From: Nitrospirota bacterium
GTDB lineage: Bacteria > JACPQY01
DNA: 35,185 nt
Direction of reading: 5' to 3'
Assembly (NCBI GenBank): GCA_016190245.1
Contig: JACPQY010000020.1
Location: 1-35,185, forward strand
Part shown: piece after piece, positions 12,924-34,041 of the stretch
How the letters are laid out: every line of letters begins with the position of its first letter
How positions within the stretch are numbered: the stretch's first letter is position 1
Notes under the pieces: generated by a model
Seen by the model: the letters and a program-made list of their open reading frames with translations, nothing else
Told to the model about the DNA's origin: nothing
The model's database searches: none
Made by a program: the position numbers and the translations under genes

Positions 12924-13715
12924 ATGAGTCTGATGCTTCAAGGGGTTTACGTCTCTGCTGCAGGCGCGGCAATTCAAGAGGAGCGCATGCAGATGTCCTC
13001 GAACAACATCGCCAACGTGAACACCTCGGGCTACAAGAAGGATTCGGTGGCGTTCCGAGATTGGCTTCCTCCCTACGGCACGGAGACGTACGGACCCCGC
13101 ACCTTCCCCCCCTTCCTTCCCGTTCAGTGGTCGTCCCTCATTTTCAAGGACGACAAGCTGTATCCCTACACCGACGAAGTGCGCACCGACTTCTCCCAAG
13201 GGTCGATGGAGGCCACGCAAAATCCGTTGGACGTCGCCATCGAGGGTTCGGGATTCTTCGTCGTCGAGACGCCCAATGGGCCGCGTTACACGCGCGACGG
13301 CAACTTCAAACTCAACAAGGACCACGTTCTGGTCAACTCCCAAGGCCTGCCCGTTCTGGGCGAAAAGGGGCCCATGAAGATCGAGGGAGAGTCCGTGACC
13401 GTCTCCCGCGAGGGCGCTGTGATCGTGGATCAGCGCGAGGTGGACAAGCTCAAGGTCGTCCAGTTTTCCAAGCTCTACACGCTCAAGAAAATCGGCGACA
13501 GCATGTTCCAGAACGACGATCCGACGGGGAATCCGGCGGGGCCGGCGCCCCAGTACACCGTTCGGCAGGGTTTTCTGGAGCTGGCGAACGTGAATCCCAT
13601 CAAGGAAATGATGCACGTGATCGAGCTCATGCGGGCGTATGACACCCAGCAGCGGGCGATCACCACGCAGGACCAGATCAACGGCCGAGCGGTCAGCGAT
13701 ATCGCGAGGATCTAG
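12924..13715 (+). CDS. flgF: Flagellar proximal-rod protein FlgF
   Basis: FlgF is a rod component between the MS-ring side and the distal rod, exported by the flagellar type III system. The 263-residue protein has the rod/hook N-terminal heptad region with SSNNIANVNTSGYKKD. It also shows the NPLDVAIEGSGFFVVETPNG...YTRDGNFKLN core and a C-terminal helix (ELMRAYDTQQRAITTQDQ) that lines the rod. It differs from FlgG by the YPYTDEVRTDFSQGSMEAT stretch. ATG at 12924 gives MSLMLQGVYVSAAGA; there is no clear Shine-Dalgarno, so ATG at 12933 is possible. First gene of the flagellar cluster; a small ORF and flgG follow. Confidence 0.93.
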   Translation: MSLMLQGVYVSAAGAAIQEERMQMSSNNIANVNTSGYKKDSVAFRDWLPPYGTETYGPRTFPPFLPVQWSSLIFKDDKLYPYTDEVRTDFSQGSMEATQNPLDVAIEGSGFFVVETPNGPRYTRDGNFKLNKDHVLVNSQGLPVLGEKGPMKIEGESVTVSREGAVIVDQREVDKLKVVQFSKLYTLKKIGDSMFQNDDPTGNPAGPAPQYTVRQGFLELANVNPIKEMMHVIELMRAYDTQQRAITTQDQINGRAVSDIARI

Positions 13716-14845: not shown

Positions 14846-15649
14846 ATGACGCGGGTGGGGGAGTTCTTGACGGTCCGAGCCGGATGCGTCTTCGTCCTCT
14901 TCATCGTGCTGATGTTCGCCGCCAGCGTCCACGCGCGCACAGGGGAAGAGAAGGCGCCGCCACCTTCGAGCGCCTCGGAGCGAGATGCCTCCCCGCCTCT
15001 CGCGGGTGGTGGGGTGACGCTCCAGGCTTCCGTGATCCAGGCGCGCGCAGAGAGCTACGTCCGATCCCTCGTTCCCGAGTACATCGAGGTCGAGTCCATG
15101 GTTTGGTCCGGGCTCGTGGACCTGAAAGACCTCGCGCCGGACGCCGAGCTCAATTTCCGGCCCATGGCGCGCTTCACCTGGTTCGGCCCACAGCGCCTGG
15201 CGCTGGACGTCACGCGCGGCGGCGAGCGTGTCAGGCGTCTCTGGCTGACGTTCGAGGTCCGCGGCCAGGCCCGCGTGGCCTGTGCCGCGCGCGACATCGC
15301 CGCCGGCAGCGCTCTCGATTCAGCCGACATCGAGGTCGGCAGCGTCCCTCTCACCCAGATCCCAGTGGATTTCGCCACCGATCCGACTTCGCTGGTCGGC
15401 CGAAAACTTTCGCGGAGGTACCGCACGGGCGAGCCGCTCTCGGCCCGGCACGTCGCCAAGATCCCAGACGTCCGCCGCGGCGACAAGGTGAGCGTCCTCG
15501 TGGGCAACGCCCGCTTCCAAGTGCAGGCCACGGGTGTGGCCCAGGAGGACGGCAGCGTGGGCGAGGTGATCTTCGTCCGCAACACGGCGTCGGGCAAGAC
15601 CTTTCTGGCCCGCGTTGTGGGAACGCATCGCGTGGAGGTGGTGCTATGA
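14846..15649 (+). CDS. flgA: P-ring assembly chaperone FlgA
   Basis: FlgA is a periplasmic chaperone that helps FlgI assemble into the P ring. The 267-residue precursor has a signal peptide (hydrophobic residues about 12-27, cleavage near VHA-R31). A variable Pro/Ser-rich stretch comes next, and then the C-terminal SAF domain with VACAARDIAAGSALDSADIEV, LVGRKLSRRYRTGEPLSARH and RRGDKVSVLVG. AGAAGGGATG gives a ribosome site close to the ATG. Its TGA overlaps the flgH ATG (ATGA at 15646-15649), indicating coupled translation. Confidence 0.93.
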   Translation: MTRVGEFLTVRAGCVFVLFIVLMFAASVHARTGEEKAPPPSSASERDASPPLAGGGVTLQASVIQARAESYVRSLVPEYIEVESMVWSGLVDLKDLAPDAELNFRPMARFTWFGPQRLALDVTRGGERVRRLWLTFEVRGQARVACAARDIAAGSALDSADIEVGSVPLTQIPVDFATDPTSLVGRKLSRRYRTGEPLSARHVAKIPDVRRGDKVSVLVGNARFQVQATGVAQEDGSVGEVIFVRNTASGKTFLARVVGTHRVEVVL

Positions 15650-16401
15650 CGGCGAACCGGCGCCGCACCCTCTGGCGCCGAGCCCGGCCCAACGGGCCCA
15701 CCGTCTCCGTGGATCAGGGCCTTTTCGCCGCCGGCTCGATACTCGTCACGATGGCCACCATGATGCTCGGATTCGTGGTCTTCGGCTGCGCGGCGGCTCC
15801 CAAGCCGAAAGAACCGGACATCAGCGACAAGATTCTCAAACAGGTCGCCGTGCTCAACACCCCCACCAACGAGGGATCGATCTGGGTGGAGGGCAGCTCC
15901 GCCGGACTGTTCACAGACGTGAAGGCCCGCGTGGTGGGCGACATCGTCGTCGTGCAGATTGACGAGAGCTCCGCGGCCCGCAAGCGCGCGGGTATGAAAC
16001 TGGATCGTGACGCGGGCGTGAGCGGCGCCCTCGAAGGAGCGGACTCCGTCTCCGGCCTCAAGTCTCTCAAAGGCAAGCTCAGCCTCGGGCAGAACTCGAA
16101 TTCGCTGGGCGAGGCCTCCCGCAGCGACAATGTGGTAGCCACGGTCACCGCCTTCGTCACTGAAATGCTCCCGAACGGGAATCTGCGGATCGAGGGCCGC
16201 AAGGACGTCCGGGTGGACAGCGAGAACCAGTACATCTACGTCTCCGGCATCATCCGGCCGAGCGACATCTCACAGACCAACACCGTGCGTTCAACCGGCA
16301 TGGCCGACGCCAAGATCGAGTACAGCGGCGATGGCGCGCTCTCGGACGGCGTTCGGCGGGGCTGGCTCAAGCGCGTTTTCGATTTCGTCTGGCCCTTGTA
16401 A
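15646..16401 (+). CDS. flgH: Flagellar L-ring lipoprotein FlgH
   Basis: FlgH forms the outer-membrane L ring. The 251-residue protein has a long basic N-terminus, a hydrophobic segment (about 27-46) and a lipobox VFGC with Cys48 as lipidated residue. The mature part shows NEGSIWVEGSSAGLFTDVKAR, VGDIVVVQIDESS, the VTAFVTEMLPNGNLRIEGRK strand and ISQTNTVRSTGMADAKIEY, all diagnostic for FlgH. About 28 residues precede the hydrophobic core, so a later start may be used. It overlaps flgA by 4 bases. The following 638 bases before flgI are unusually large for this cluster. Confidence 0.95.
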   Translation: MTANRRRTLWRRARPNGPTVSVDQGLFAAGSILVTMATMMLGFVVFGCAAAPKPKEPDISDKILKQVAVLNTPTNEGSIWVEGSSAGLFTDVKARVVGDIVVVQIDESSAARKRAGMKLDRDAGVSGALEGADSVSGLKSLKGKLSLGQNSNSLGEASRSDNVVATVTAFVTEMLPNGNLRIEGRKDVRVDSENQYIYVSGIIRPSDISQTNTVRSTGMADAKIEYSGDGALSDGVRRGWLKRVFDFVWPL

Positions 16402-16404
16402 CTC

Positions 16405-16498
16405 GTGAGCCGCTAGCCGTGAACAGCGAAAAATGTTTGAGGGCCGTGCAGGAGGCAGGAAGCCTTTCCTGCTCACGGCTCACTGCTCACGGCTCACG
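16405..16498. repeat. Inverted array of degenerate 7-bp repeats after flgH
   Basis: GTGAGCC, GCTAGCC, GTGAACA at 16405-16426 is mirrored by GCTCACG GCTCACT GCTCACG GCTCACG at 16471-16498. The repeat period is 7 and the two arms can pair. It starts four bases after the flgH stop. Confidence 0.65.
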
Positions 16499-16554
16499 CC
16501 GTGAAGAAAGCCCCTCTGCGCCGGGTTCCCCCCTCCCGGCGCTACCTCCATTGA

Positions 16555-16590
16555 GCGGGCTCCCACGGATGGGAGCCCGCTTTTATTTTT
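16555..16590 (+). terminator. Strong intrinsic terminator between flgH and flgI
   Basis: GCGGGCTCCC (16555-16564) and GGGAGCCCGC (16571-16580) form a perfect 10-bp stem with a 6-base loop, followed directly by TTTTATTTTT (16581-16590). It should end transcripts from flgH, so flgI onwards probably needs another promoter or read-through control. Confidence 0.88.
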
Positions 16591-16677
16591 CGGAGTCCAG
16601 CCGCACGACGTTGCGTGGAGAACGCGCGTCGGGCGCGCAGAGGCTCCGGGAAGGGACGGGCCACATCCTCCTCAAAT

Positions 16678-16946
16678 CCCGCCTCCCATCCCAGGAGACG
16701 GGATCCTCCTTCCCCGCCGACTCAGCGGGGAGGTCTCACTCAGACCCTGGCCGTATCCCTCAGTCCCGCCGTCTTGACCGGGCGGTGGGGCCAACCCTAG
16801 AGGGGATCCCCAGCCCCATAGGGCGTTTTATCCTTGTGGCCATGGGCCCCCGGGAGCCAGGAAGGGCATTCGCGTGCCTTTCGGGTTTCCCGGGGGCTTC
16901 CCTCCCCACAGGGAAAAGGCCCGCACGGGCTTCCGGACCGACTCCG
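16678..16946 (+). other. Densely structured non-coding region upstream of flgI
   Basis: Consecutive hairpins can be drawn by eye at 16678-16702, 16709-16733, 16732-16746, 16766-16785 and 16795-16823 (CCCTA-GA-GGGG/CCCC-A-TAGGG, then GCGTTTTAT). Next is 16846-16897, with perfect 10-bp arms GCCCCCGGGA/TCCCGGGGGC enclosing a 7-bp inner hairpin at 16862-16881. The last are 16898-16915 (TTCCCT/AGGGAA) and 16917-16932, with a 4-bp stem at 16934-16946. No known riboswitch consensus was recognised. It could be a structured 5' leader, an independent RNA or a repeat element. Confidence 0.5.
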
Positions 16947-17039
16947 AGCCGTTTCCAGACGAGCATCCCAACGGCGCCGGTTGCAGAGAAGCTTGGCAGG
17001 CCGGGATATTCGGGTTTGAGATCGAGGCTCTCGGGGAGA

Positions 17040-18152
17040 ATGGGCCTCCTCTTCGCCTCTATGTTGCTTGTGACGGTCTGGGCCGGGCTTGGGAATCCAC
17101 GTCCGGCCCATGCCGACCGCGTGAAGGATCTTGTGAACGTCCTCGGTGTGCGCTCGAACCAACTTATCGGCTACGGCCTCGTAGTCGGCCTCGAGGGATC
17201 GGGCGACTCCTTCTTCCGATCCAACTTCACCCAGCAGAGCCTGGCCAACTTTCTCAAGAAACTCGGGATCCTCTTGGACGAGCGCACCGTGCGGAACCTC
17301 CGGCTGCGCAACAGCGCGGCCGTCATGGCCGTGGCCGGTCTTCCCGCCTTCGTGCGCCAGGGGAGCCGTGTAGATGTGATCGTGTCTTCCCTGGGCGATG
17401 CCCGCAGCCTCCAGGGCGGCACTCTCCTCATGACGCCCCTCAAAGGGGCGGACGGCAAGGTCTACGCCGTGGCTCAGGGACCGATTTCCGTGGGCGGATT
17501 CGAGCCGGGAAAAGCCTCCGCGCGCGCCGAGCGAAACCACATGACGACGGGCCGAATCAGCGGCGGCGCGCTCGTGGAGCACGAAGTCGTGATTGATCTG
17601 CAGAAGAAAGAGTCGCTCACGCTCCTGCTGATCAATCCCGACTTCACCACCTCCTCCCGGATCGCCCAGGCCATCAATGCCGGCCTCGGCGGCGATTTCG
17701 CCAGTCCCGTGGATGCCTCCGCGGTTCAACTGCGCATCCCGGAGGATTTCCGGGGCAATGTGGTGGATCTCGTGTCCGCCATCGAGGCCTTGGACGTGGA
17801 GGAATCGTCGAGGGCCCGCGTGGTGATGGACGAGCGGACCGGGACCGTCGTCATGGGCGAGAACCTCCAGCTCAAGCCGGTGGCCGTGGCGCACGGTGAG
17901 CTGCATATCACCATCGCGGAAGAGGGGCAGGAACCGTTGCCGCTCTCGCCGCAGGAGACTATAATTCTACCAAGCAACATGGAAGGCGAGAGCTCCAGGA
18001 AGGAGCGGGTTCTGATGCTGCCTCAGGGCCCCACGCTGGGCGAGATCGTCAAGGCCCTCAATACCATCGGGGTGGAGCCACGGGACTTGATCGCCATTCT
18101 GCAAGCCCTGAGAGCCGCGGGGGCGCTCAATGCCCAGATTGATTTCATGTAG
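17040..18152 (+). CDS. flgI: Flagellar P-ring protein FlgI
   Basis: FlgI builds the periplasmic P ring around the rod. From ATG at 17040 it has 370 residues, the usual size. The signal peptide is MGLLFASMLLVTVWAGL with cleavage after PAHA. The mature N-terminus DRVKDLVNVLGVRSNQLIGY is near-invariant for FlgI. VVGLEGSGDS, AVMAVAGLPAFVRQGSRVDV and the C-terminal LGEIVKALNTIGVEPRDLI also fit. The start is ambiguous: GGGGAGA lies only 1-2 bases from ATG 17040, while TTG at 17016 would give a better basic n-region (RSRLSGR). An open frame extends back to 16419 but is not protein-like. flgJ follows after 56 bases. Confidence 0.95.
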   Translation: MGLLFASMLLVTVWAGLGNPRPAHADRVKDLVNVLGVRSNQLIGYGLVVGLEGSGDSFFRSNFTQQSLANFLKKLGILLDERTVRNLRLRNSAAVMAVAGLPAFVRQGSRVDVIVSSLGDARSLQGGTLLMTPLKGADGKVYAVAQGPISVGGFEPGKASARAERNHMTTGRISGGALVEHEVVIDLQKKESLTLLLINPDFTTSSRIAQAINAGLGGDFASPVDASAVQLRIPEDFRGNVVDLVSAIEALDVEESSRARVVMDERTGTVVMGENLQLKPVAVAHGELHITIAEEGQEPLPLSPQETIILPSNMEGESSRKERVLMLPQGPTLGEIVKALNTIGVEPRDLIAILQALRAAGALNAQIDFM

Positions 18153-19177: not shown

Positions 19178-19204
19178 TAAAGTTCCCCATGGGGCTGCCG
19201 AAGG
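19178..19204 (+). promoter_or_regulatory. Sigma-28 (FliA)-like promoter of flgM
   Basis: TAAAGTTC begins at 19178, and the -10 GCCGAAGG is at 19197-19204. TAAA and GCCG are separated by exactly 15 bases, matching TAAA-N15-GCCGATAA with GCCGA conserved. The spacer holds the palindrome CCCCATGGGG. The predicted start near 19211 leaves a leader of about 20 bases with GAGGAGAAGG before ATG 19232. Confidence 0.7.
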
Positions 19205-19543: not shown

Positions 19544-19603
19544 CCGAGACCGCCGCCGCGCGGCGGATCTCGTTGGGGGCGGCTTCGTTCCAAGGAGGGA
19601 ACC

Positions 19604-20120: not shown

Positions 20121-20276
20121 GTGAACAGAGAACCGAGAACCGCGAGCGGAGAATCGAGAATCGGGAATCGAGAATCGAAATGCCGACTCTCCGCCGAGGG
20201 GCGGACTCCCGGCTCCCAATCCTCGACCTCCGACTGCCGACTCTCCGCCGAATGGCGGACTGCCGACTGCCGATAA
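20121..20276. repeat. Degenerate 7-bp repeats between flgN and flgK
   Basis: Two blocks of 7-bp period, GAGAATC-like (about 20121-20178) and GACTGCC-like (about 20230-20272), flank inverted cores CTCCGCCGAGGGGCGGA and CTCCGCCGAATGGCGGA. The array reaches to 2 bases before the flgK ATG, leaving no normal ribosome-binding site. Confidence 0.7.
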
Positions 20277-33570: not shown

Positions 33571-33814
33571 CTCTCAGAATTCATCGGCGGCAACGCTCGA
33601 TTCTTGAGCCTCTTCAGAGGTTTCAGATCGCGCCCCGGTCATGACACCCACCCGCTGCAGTCTTGTCACCTCCCACGCCACTGGTGCGCTGCGGAGCCAT
33701 CGCTCACCCCTGCCCGTTCGACGGGAATTCCGCGAGTTCGAGCGATGACGTTTGACGTGGCGGAAGCCCTTGGGTGTGGTGGCACTCGGTTCCTATCCGA
33801 AAAGCCCGGCACTC

Positions 33815-33871
33815 GTAGGGAGCATCTTCAGATACTCCCTGATCCGGGCGGACCCAAGGATCCGCCCCTAC
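33815..33871. repeat. Branched palindromic intergenic repeat, copy 3
   Basis: GTAGG (33815-33819) closes on CCTAC (33867-33871). Within lie hairpin GGGAGCATCT/AGATACTCCC (33818-33839, one mismatch) and hairpin GGGCGGA/TCCGCCC (33846-33867). The layout is a small three-way junction. Confidence 0.72.
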
Positions 33872-33887
33872 TTCCCCTTCTTGGAAG

Positions 33888-33925
33888 TGAACAGCAAGAC
33901 AGTGAACAGCGGGATAGCAAGAGAG
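33888..33925. repeat. GTGAACA-type repeats
   Basis: GTGAACA GCAAGACA GTGAACA GCGGGATA GCAAGAGA lies between two palindromic repeat copies. The unit is the same GTGAACA seen after flgH (about 16420) and flgN (about 20121). Confidence 0.5.
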
Positions 33926-33933
33926 TCATCTTC

Positions 33934-33959
33934 GTAGGGGAGCATCTTCAGATGCTCCC
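33934..33959. repeat. Branched palindromic repeat, half copy 4
   Basis: GTAGGG followed by the perfect 10-bp hairpin GGGAGCATCT/AGATGCTCCC (33938-33959). It equals the first half of copy 3; the second hairpin and closing CCTAC are missing. Confidence 0.65.
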
Positions 33960-34041
33960 TCCTCATGGGCGGGTCTGATGTTTTGGGATAGGCTGTCAGA
34001 ATAGGGGAGGTGGTGGAGTGGCGAGCATCTTGCACAGGCAG

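Follow-up and report, generated by a model that had tools for sequence, protein, structure and literature searches.

CsrA is a protein that tunes the building of the flagellum, and the small RNAs of the CsrB/RsmZ type, which sequester it, carry many GGA loops. Among the closest described counterparts of the locus analysed here is the CsrA-FliW system of Campylobacter jejuni. There the flgI and flgH RNAs are CsrA targets, their 5'UTRs being enriched about 170- and 200-fold, respectively, with CsrA, and CsrA was also bound between the genes of polycistrons; CsrA repressed a flgI reporter with FliW as the antagonist, and deletion of fliW lowered FlgI (PMC4894983). Hexaloops of the form ANGGAN are bound by RsmE/CsrA, CsrA is antagonised by FliW, and the hairpins obtained by SELEX mostly had at most 4 pairs (PMC7652899). 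A further point of comparison is the flg-Rhizobiales RNA motif, whose name marks it as a candidate structured RNA linked to genes of the flagellum (RF01736; PMC2864571).

The window, i.e. the whole stretch of 35,185 nt analysed here, belongs to genome G000. It was compared with genome G001 of another genus in the same family, the phylum being represented by these two genomes in the collection. As in C. jejuni, CsrA and FliW are present and GGA motifs are found in hairpins. In C. jejuni, however, these motifs lie near the flgI Shine-Dalgarno site (PMC4894983), whereas here the exact ANGGAN hairpin, a putative site, is located about 470 nt upstream; and, unlike C. jejuni, G000 and G001 have a long structured gap between the adjacent flgH and flgI genes. 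The flg-Rhizobiales motif comes from a different lineage and gave no covariance-model match in the gap even at E up to 5.

Layout of the flgH-flgI gap

A sequence-only reading of the window had reported 638 bases between flgH and flgI, and this spacing was confirmed by the ORF ends: flgH stops at 16401 and flgI has a possible start at 17040, leaving a gap of 16402-17039 (Table 1), with an in-frame TTG at 17016 as a possible alternative start. The further statement that the other flagellar genes are spaced by 0-180 bases does not hold throughout, since flgF and flgG are 284 bases apart if flgF ends at 13715. In G001 the gene order is the same, with 765 bases between flgH and flgI. At the FlgI loci of other bacteria the gap mostly measures no more than about 100 bases, signal peptide allowed for, and no homologue of the gap RNA was found at these loci. 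Four parts could be distinguished in the G000 gap: a palindrome, element I (16500-16590), a run of hairpins forming the structured core, and the final 80 bases adjoining flgI (16960-17039), which are unstructured (z +0.9). The near-unbroken run of stems noticed earlier at 16678-16946 was recovered as the hairpin run 16590-16959.

Table 1. Features of the flgH-flgI region, in positions of the window
Feature	Position	Strand	Basis or remark
flgH (L-ring), upstream gene	15646..16401	+	ORF; tblastn orthology, 70% amino acid identity to G001
Imperfect palindrome, CTCACGG-type heptamers, dispersed repeat	16404..16498	.	inverted repeat, 26-nt arms
Hairpin 1, element I	16518..16542	+	GCGCCGGG-loop TTCCCCCCT-CCCGGCGC; C to U change in G001 leaves a G-U pair
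Single-stranded linker, element I	16543..16552	+	TACCTCCATT, anti-Shine-Dalgarno-like CCTCC; 100% identical in G001
Hairpin 2, element I, terminator-like, 12-13 pairs	16553..16582	+	fold and comparison with G001; one compensatory change, U-A to C-G
ACGGAT hexaloop of hairpin 2 (CACGGATG), putative CsrA site	16565..16570	+	invariant in G001
U-tract	16580..16589	+	lost in G001 (TTTGCTCCTT)
Structured core, hairpin run	16590..16959	+	z about -5 here and in G001
Hairpin A	16712..16730	+	CCCCGC/GCGGGG; C-G to A-U change in G001
Hairpin B	16732..16746	+	GGTCT/AGACC; C-G to U-G in G001
Conserved block TCAGACCYTGGCCGTWTCCCTC	16740..16761	+	alignment with G001
P1/P2 domain	16831..16914	+	TCCTTGTGG/CCACAGGGA close a 15-pair helix; compensatory change
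flgI (P-ring), downstream gene	17040..18152	+	75% amino acid identity to G001

The possibility that flgI extends further at its N-terminus (open frame of 577 codons here and 616 in G001) was rejected, the composition and the substitution pattern being non-coding. GC by codon position is 0.62/0.68/0.71 in the gap frame vs 0.68/0.43/0.81 in flgI, and indels in the alignment of the two gaps do not come in threes. Promoters of the sigma-70, sigma-54 and sigma-28 types were sought within the gap and none was found. Elsewhere in the window, sigma-28-like promoter matches were seen 5' of flgM (19178-19204) and of flgK (20250-20276). Searching the gap against Rfam at the gathering threshold gave no match, and the best sub-threshold matches were implausible; the gap RNA fits no known RNA family.

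The palindrome directly downstream of flgH has many partial copies across the genome, and at the same spot 3' of flgH in G001 different heptamers of the GTGATGA type are found. It is not part of the conserved RNA. A second dispersed palindrome of heptamer repeats, of the CTGAAAT type, lies at about 2480-2520 of the window. In a search of both genomes for further copies, 16500-16960 proved to be single copy in each.

Folding and conservation

Against dinucleotide shuffles, z is -7.1 for the sense strand of 16555-17039; for 16590-17039 it is -4.6 on the sense and -1.3 on the other strand. The core has a predicted energy of -198.6 kcal/mol and a z of about -5.0 to -5.7 on the plus strand and -2.2 on the minus strand. 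In the folding check proposed with the sequence-only reading, the gap is more stable than shuffled controls, with a sense bias (z about -5 vs about -2). Among 370-nt windows taken across the 35-kb stretch (n=118), the two covering the gap region rank 2nd and 3rd lowest in z, and just one or two of 271 windows from other parts of the genome lie that low, which places the region in the lowest 1% (the G000 genome backgrounds used here and below were drawn from 340-375 kb). Since single 120-nt windows within genes attain similar z values, the exceptional feature is the long stretch and not each hairpin. Of the earlier description of adjacent, well-paired stems, the run as such stands, with a core z of about -5, whereas the individual hairpins are not exceptional; the stem singled out at 16795-16823 comes out weak in the prediction and lacks an equivalent in G001. 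Two further stretches of the window with very low z, 1801-2170 and 33601-33970, appear to be rich in palindromic repeats (CCGCCGCGGCGG; GTAGGGGAGCATCTTCAGATGCTCCC).

Over 84 bases (16500-16583), element I shares 90% identity with G001, which is above the range of the flagellar genes (65-80% at the DNA level), and 4-fold degenerate sites of seven flagellar genes show 43% identity between the two genomes. The core alignment stands at about 66%, and the blocks TCAGACCYTGGCCGTWTCCCTC, TCCTTGTGGCCAYGGGCCC and CCTCCCCACARGGAAAMGGC in it are nearly invariant; although diverged, the G001 core has a z of -5.0 on the sense and -3.6 on the other strand. It carries a 62-bp insert with a hairpin, flanked by a 7-bp duplication CCTTGCC (L067 3433-3508) and single copy in G001. 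Consensus folding against column shuffles gave element I a z of -5.3 and the core one of -7.4, compared with +0.8 to -4.35 for 12 coding segments. In the named helices, which were picked with both sequences in view, every variable pair stays standard. Hairpin 2, hairpin A and P2 show double changes; hairpin 1, hairpin B and P1 show wobble changes.

When the G000 fold was mapped on G001, the whole core kept 33-41% of its variable pairs vs 11-39% in coding controls, and the only standouts were P1/P2 (7/10) and element I (2/2). In the reverse mapping of the G001 fold onto G000, element I fell to 4/8 pairs. Since mapping from a single genome, with two sequences, favours only these parts, support for the structure is good in element I and P1/P2, and in the remainder the structure is plausible. 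The proposed covariation check was thus positive for element I and P1/P2, while the rest of the core stayed, with two sequences, near the level of the coding controls. A conserved closing helix or switch pairing 16750-16761 with 16910-16922 is not claimed, because as many pairs are gained as lost, and a search of the gap for a conserved anti-Shine-Dalgarno or anti-terminator switch found none.

Attempts to find the RNA beyond G001 by BLAST in 386 genomes were not successful; the one further match covered 23 nt of the terminator stem and was no better than chance. Covariance models over 98 and 41 genomes and two scans of viral_contigs likewise gave no homologue of the gap RNA. Taken on these data, 16500-16960 is very probably a conserved structured RNA, and the comparison of the two genomes is best read as showing a lineage-specific structured intercistronic RNA.

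Terminator-like hairpin and candidate CsrA sites

The earlier claim of a textbook terminator was upheld for G000 alone, where the GC-rich hairpin 2 is followed by a U-tract (16553-16582 with tail TTATTTTT). Hairpin 2 is the sole terminator-like site within 16300-17100 and the strongest of 113 such sites in 375 kb of G000, and in this genome it probably ends or attenuates the flgH transcript together with its U-tract. No terminator was found between the core and flgI. By strict criteria, a canonical intrinsic terminator occurs in the 375 kb only at 16553-16589; since terminators with a strong stem and a real U-tract are almost absent there, G000 may use other means of termination. Intrinsic terminators share with hairpin 2 of G000 the GC-rich stem and the U-tract, but here the stem and loop are conserved and the U-tract is not. 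Because the U-tract is lost in G001 while stem and loop are kept, termination is not the conserved trait; as far as two sequences can tell, selection has kept the stem and loop of hairpin 2 rather than a terminator.

The sequence-only reading missed a CsrA-type loop within this hairpin. CCC-ACGGAT-GGG at 16562-16573 is an ANGGAN hexaloop on a 12-bp stem, unchanged in G001; loops of this CANGGANG form are bound by CsrA and RsmE (PMC4894983, PMC7652899). Both genomes encode csrA (PF02599) and fliW, the two genes being neighbours in G000 and near each other in G001. ANGGAN hexaloop hairpins with a stem of at least 6 pairs have a background of 0.013 per kb-strand (340 kb of genome), and 6 were found in 2.0 kb of flagellin leaders, which is about 230-fold up; in the leaders the stems have 6-9 pairs and the Shine-Dalgarno site is often in the loop. 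Such hairpins number one in the G000 gap (stem 12) and three in the G001 gap (stems of 12, 6 and 7), the two extra ones being located at C30 32190 and 32390. Among hexaloop hairpins with a stem of at least 7 pairs, 1/4 in the G000 gap and 2/7 in the G001 gap are ANGGAN, against 0.3% in the background, the ANGGAN test having been chosen after the loop had been seen.

A second site, either at bridging distance or over the Shine-Dalgarno sequence, was also considered. In G000 a GGAGA loop lies about 50 nt downstream and is not conserved; in G001 an ANGGAN hairpin lies 67 nt downstream. The inner loop of P1/P2 reads CAAGGATG in G001, a CsrA-type sequence, and its G000 equivalent is inexact (CAGGAAGG). 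The bare pattern CCCANGGANGGG shows a modest excess (22 vs 15 in the control for G000, 29 vs 11 for G001). Loops containing GGA are not enriched in the G000 gap, where 2 were counted and 16% of shuffles match this number. The gap resembles CsrB/RsmZ-type RNAs in having GGA in hairpin loops, but exact sites number only one in G000 and three in G001, and the GGA-loop count of G000 is not significant; it was rejected as a Csr sponge RNA of the CsrB type.

In the flagellin leaders L105 and L109 of G001 and L106, L107 and L110 of G000, ANGGA motifs lie about 20-80 bases 5' of the genes. Three of them (L105, L109 and L110) have a tandem pair of ANGGAN hairpins in which the second loop holds the Shine-Dalgarno sequence; in L110 an AAAGGA hexaloop on a 9-bp stem is followed by GCTTAC-AAGGAG-GTAAGC with the Shine-Dalgarno sequence in the loop. 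These tandem hairpins are strong candidates for CsrA sites, their anatomy being like that of C. jejuni flaA. Another hairpin in the window, GTTCC-AAGGAG-GGAAC at 19587-19602, has a Shine-Dalgarno-like hexaloop directly 5' of flgN (start 19604) and is possibly one more candidate site.

Discussion

The reading that we prefer, with a probability of roughly 0.45, is that the gap RNA is a CsrA-linked structure of the flagellar mRNA, whose putative CsrA hexaloop couples flgI output to FliW-CsrA, serves as a decoy, or both. It draws on the sense-biased, conserved and single-copy structure, on csrA and fliW in both genomes and on the enrichment of the same loops in flagellin leaders; from these we infer transcription of the gap, CsrA binding and an effect on flgI. 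The flg transcript would include the gap RNA on its sense strand and CsrA would bind the ACGGAT loop of hairpin 2. Free FliW would remove CsrA and so set its activity, and the output of the P-ring gene flgI could thereby be coupled to the FliW-CsrA circuit of flagellar assembly. Alternatively or in addition, the RNA might act as a CsrA decoy borne on the mRNA. The point of action could be termination or attenuation at hairpin 2, the stability of the flgH and flgI halves, or translation of flgI aided by the folded core. With the loop about 470 nt upstream, CsrA is unlikely to act simply by occluding the ribosome site of flgI.

Of the three options offered by the sequence-only reading, a structured leader fared best, given the sense-strand structure, the position kept in a second genus and the lack of a terminator before flgI, though it was borne out in part only. 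Control of flgI by a long structured 5' leader or attenuator could also do without CsrA, operating through a ligand, a protein or the ribosome, with the upstream hairpin merely ending the flgH transcript. The conserved blocks on the sense strand in both genomes fit such a leader, as do the terminator and U-tract in G000 followed by a terminator-free stretch from the core to flgI. However, the gap yielded no promoter-like sequence, no credible Rfam leader or riboswitch and no conserved anti-Shine-Dalgarno or anti-terminator switch, and the 80 bases beside flgI are unstructured, so that we hold control without CsrA to be rather unlikely. Quite unlikely is an independent small RNA, whether this were element I, as an sRNA derived from the flgH 3'UTR, or the core on its own. 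Element I, the best-conserved part, does have an sRNA-like anatomy, with its CCTCC anti-Shine-Dalgarno linker, C-rich loop and terminator, and might act on distant targets; but G001 has lost the U-tract that a defined 3' end would require, and the core has neither a terminator nor a promoter that could be found.

The strong stems, kept even without the U-tract, and the 62-bp insert tolerated in the G001 core might instead point to an element of mRNA stability or processing which protects the flgH end and separates the flgH and flgI parts of a single long transcript with no dedicated regulator. This would leave the invariant loop and linker and the blocks of the core unexplained, and we regard it as very unlikely. 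The lowest probability is given to chance or inserted repeats in GC-rich DNA. The palindrome at 16404-16498 does belong to a dispersed family, as the earlier option of an inserted repeat would have it, and two other low-z stretches of the window look repeat-rich; but for 16500-16960 insertion was rejected on its single copy in both genomes, and G001, of another genus, keeps its position and sequence to a degree far beyond the neutral level.

A wider form of the preferred CsrA-linked reading would be a new family of large, structured intercistronic RNAs (about 450 nt) from a thinly sampled bacterial lineage, with a CsrA-binding terminator hairpin and a folded core jointly setting the P-ring/L-ring ratio of synthesis under FliW-CsrA; this we consider doubtful. 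For candidate CsrA targets in both genomes, the flagellin leaders offer a well-defined set open to testing. If the CsrA-linked reading is right, the FliW-CsrA circuit reaches a lineage with only two genomes in the collection and takes in, beyond the flagellin leaders, a long structured RNA located between the ring genes, and hairpin 2 would be an example of a terminator-shaped hairpin kept for its protein-binding loop, not for termination.
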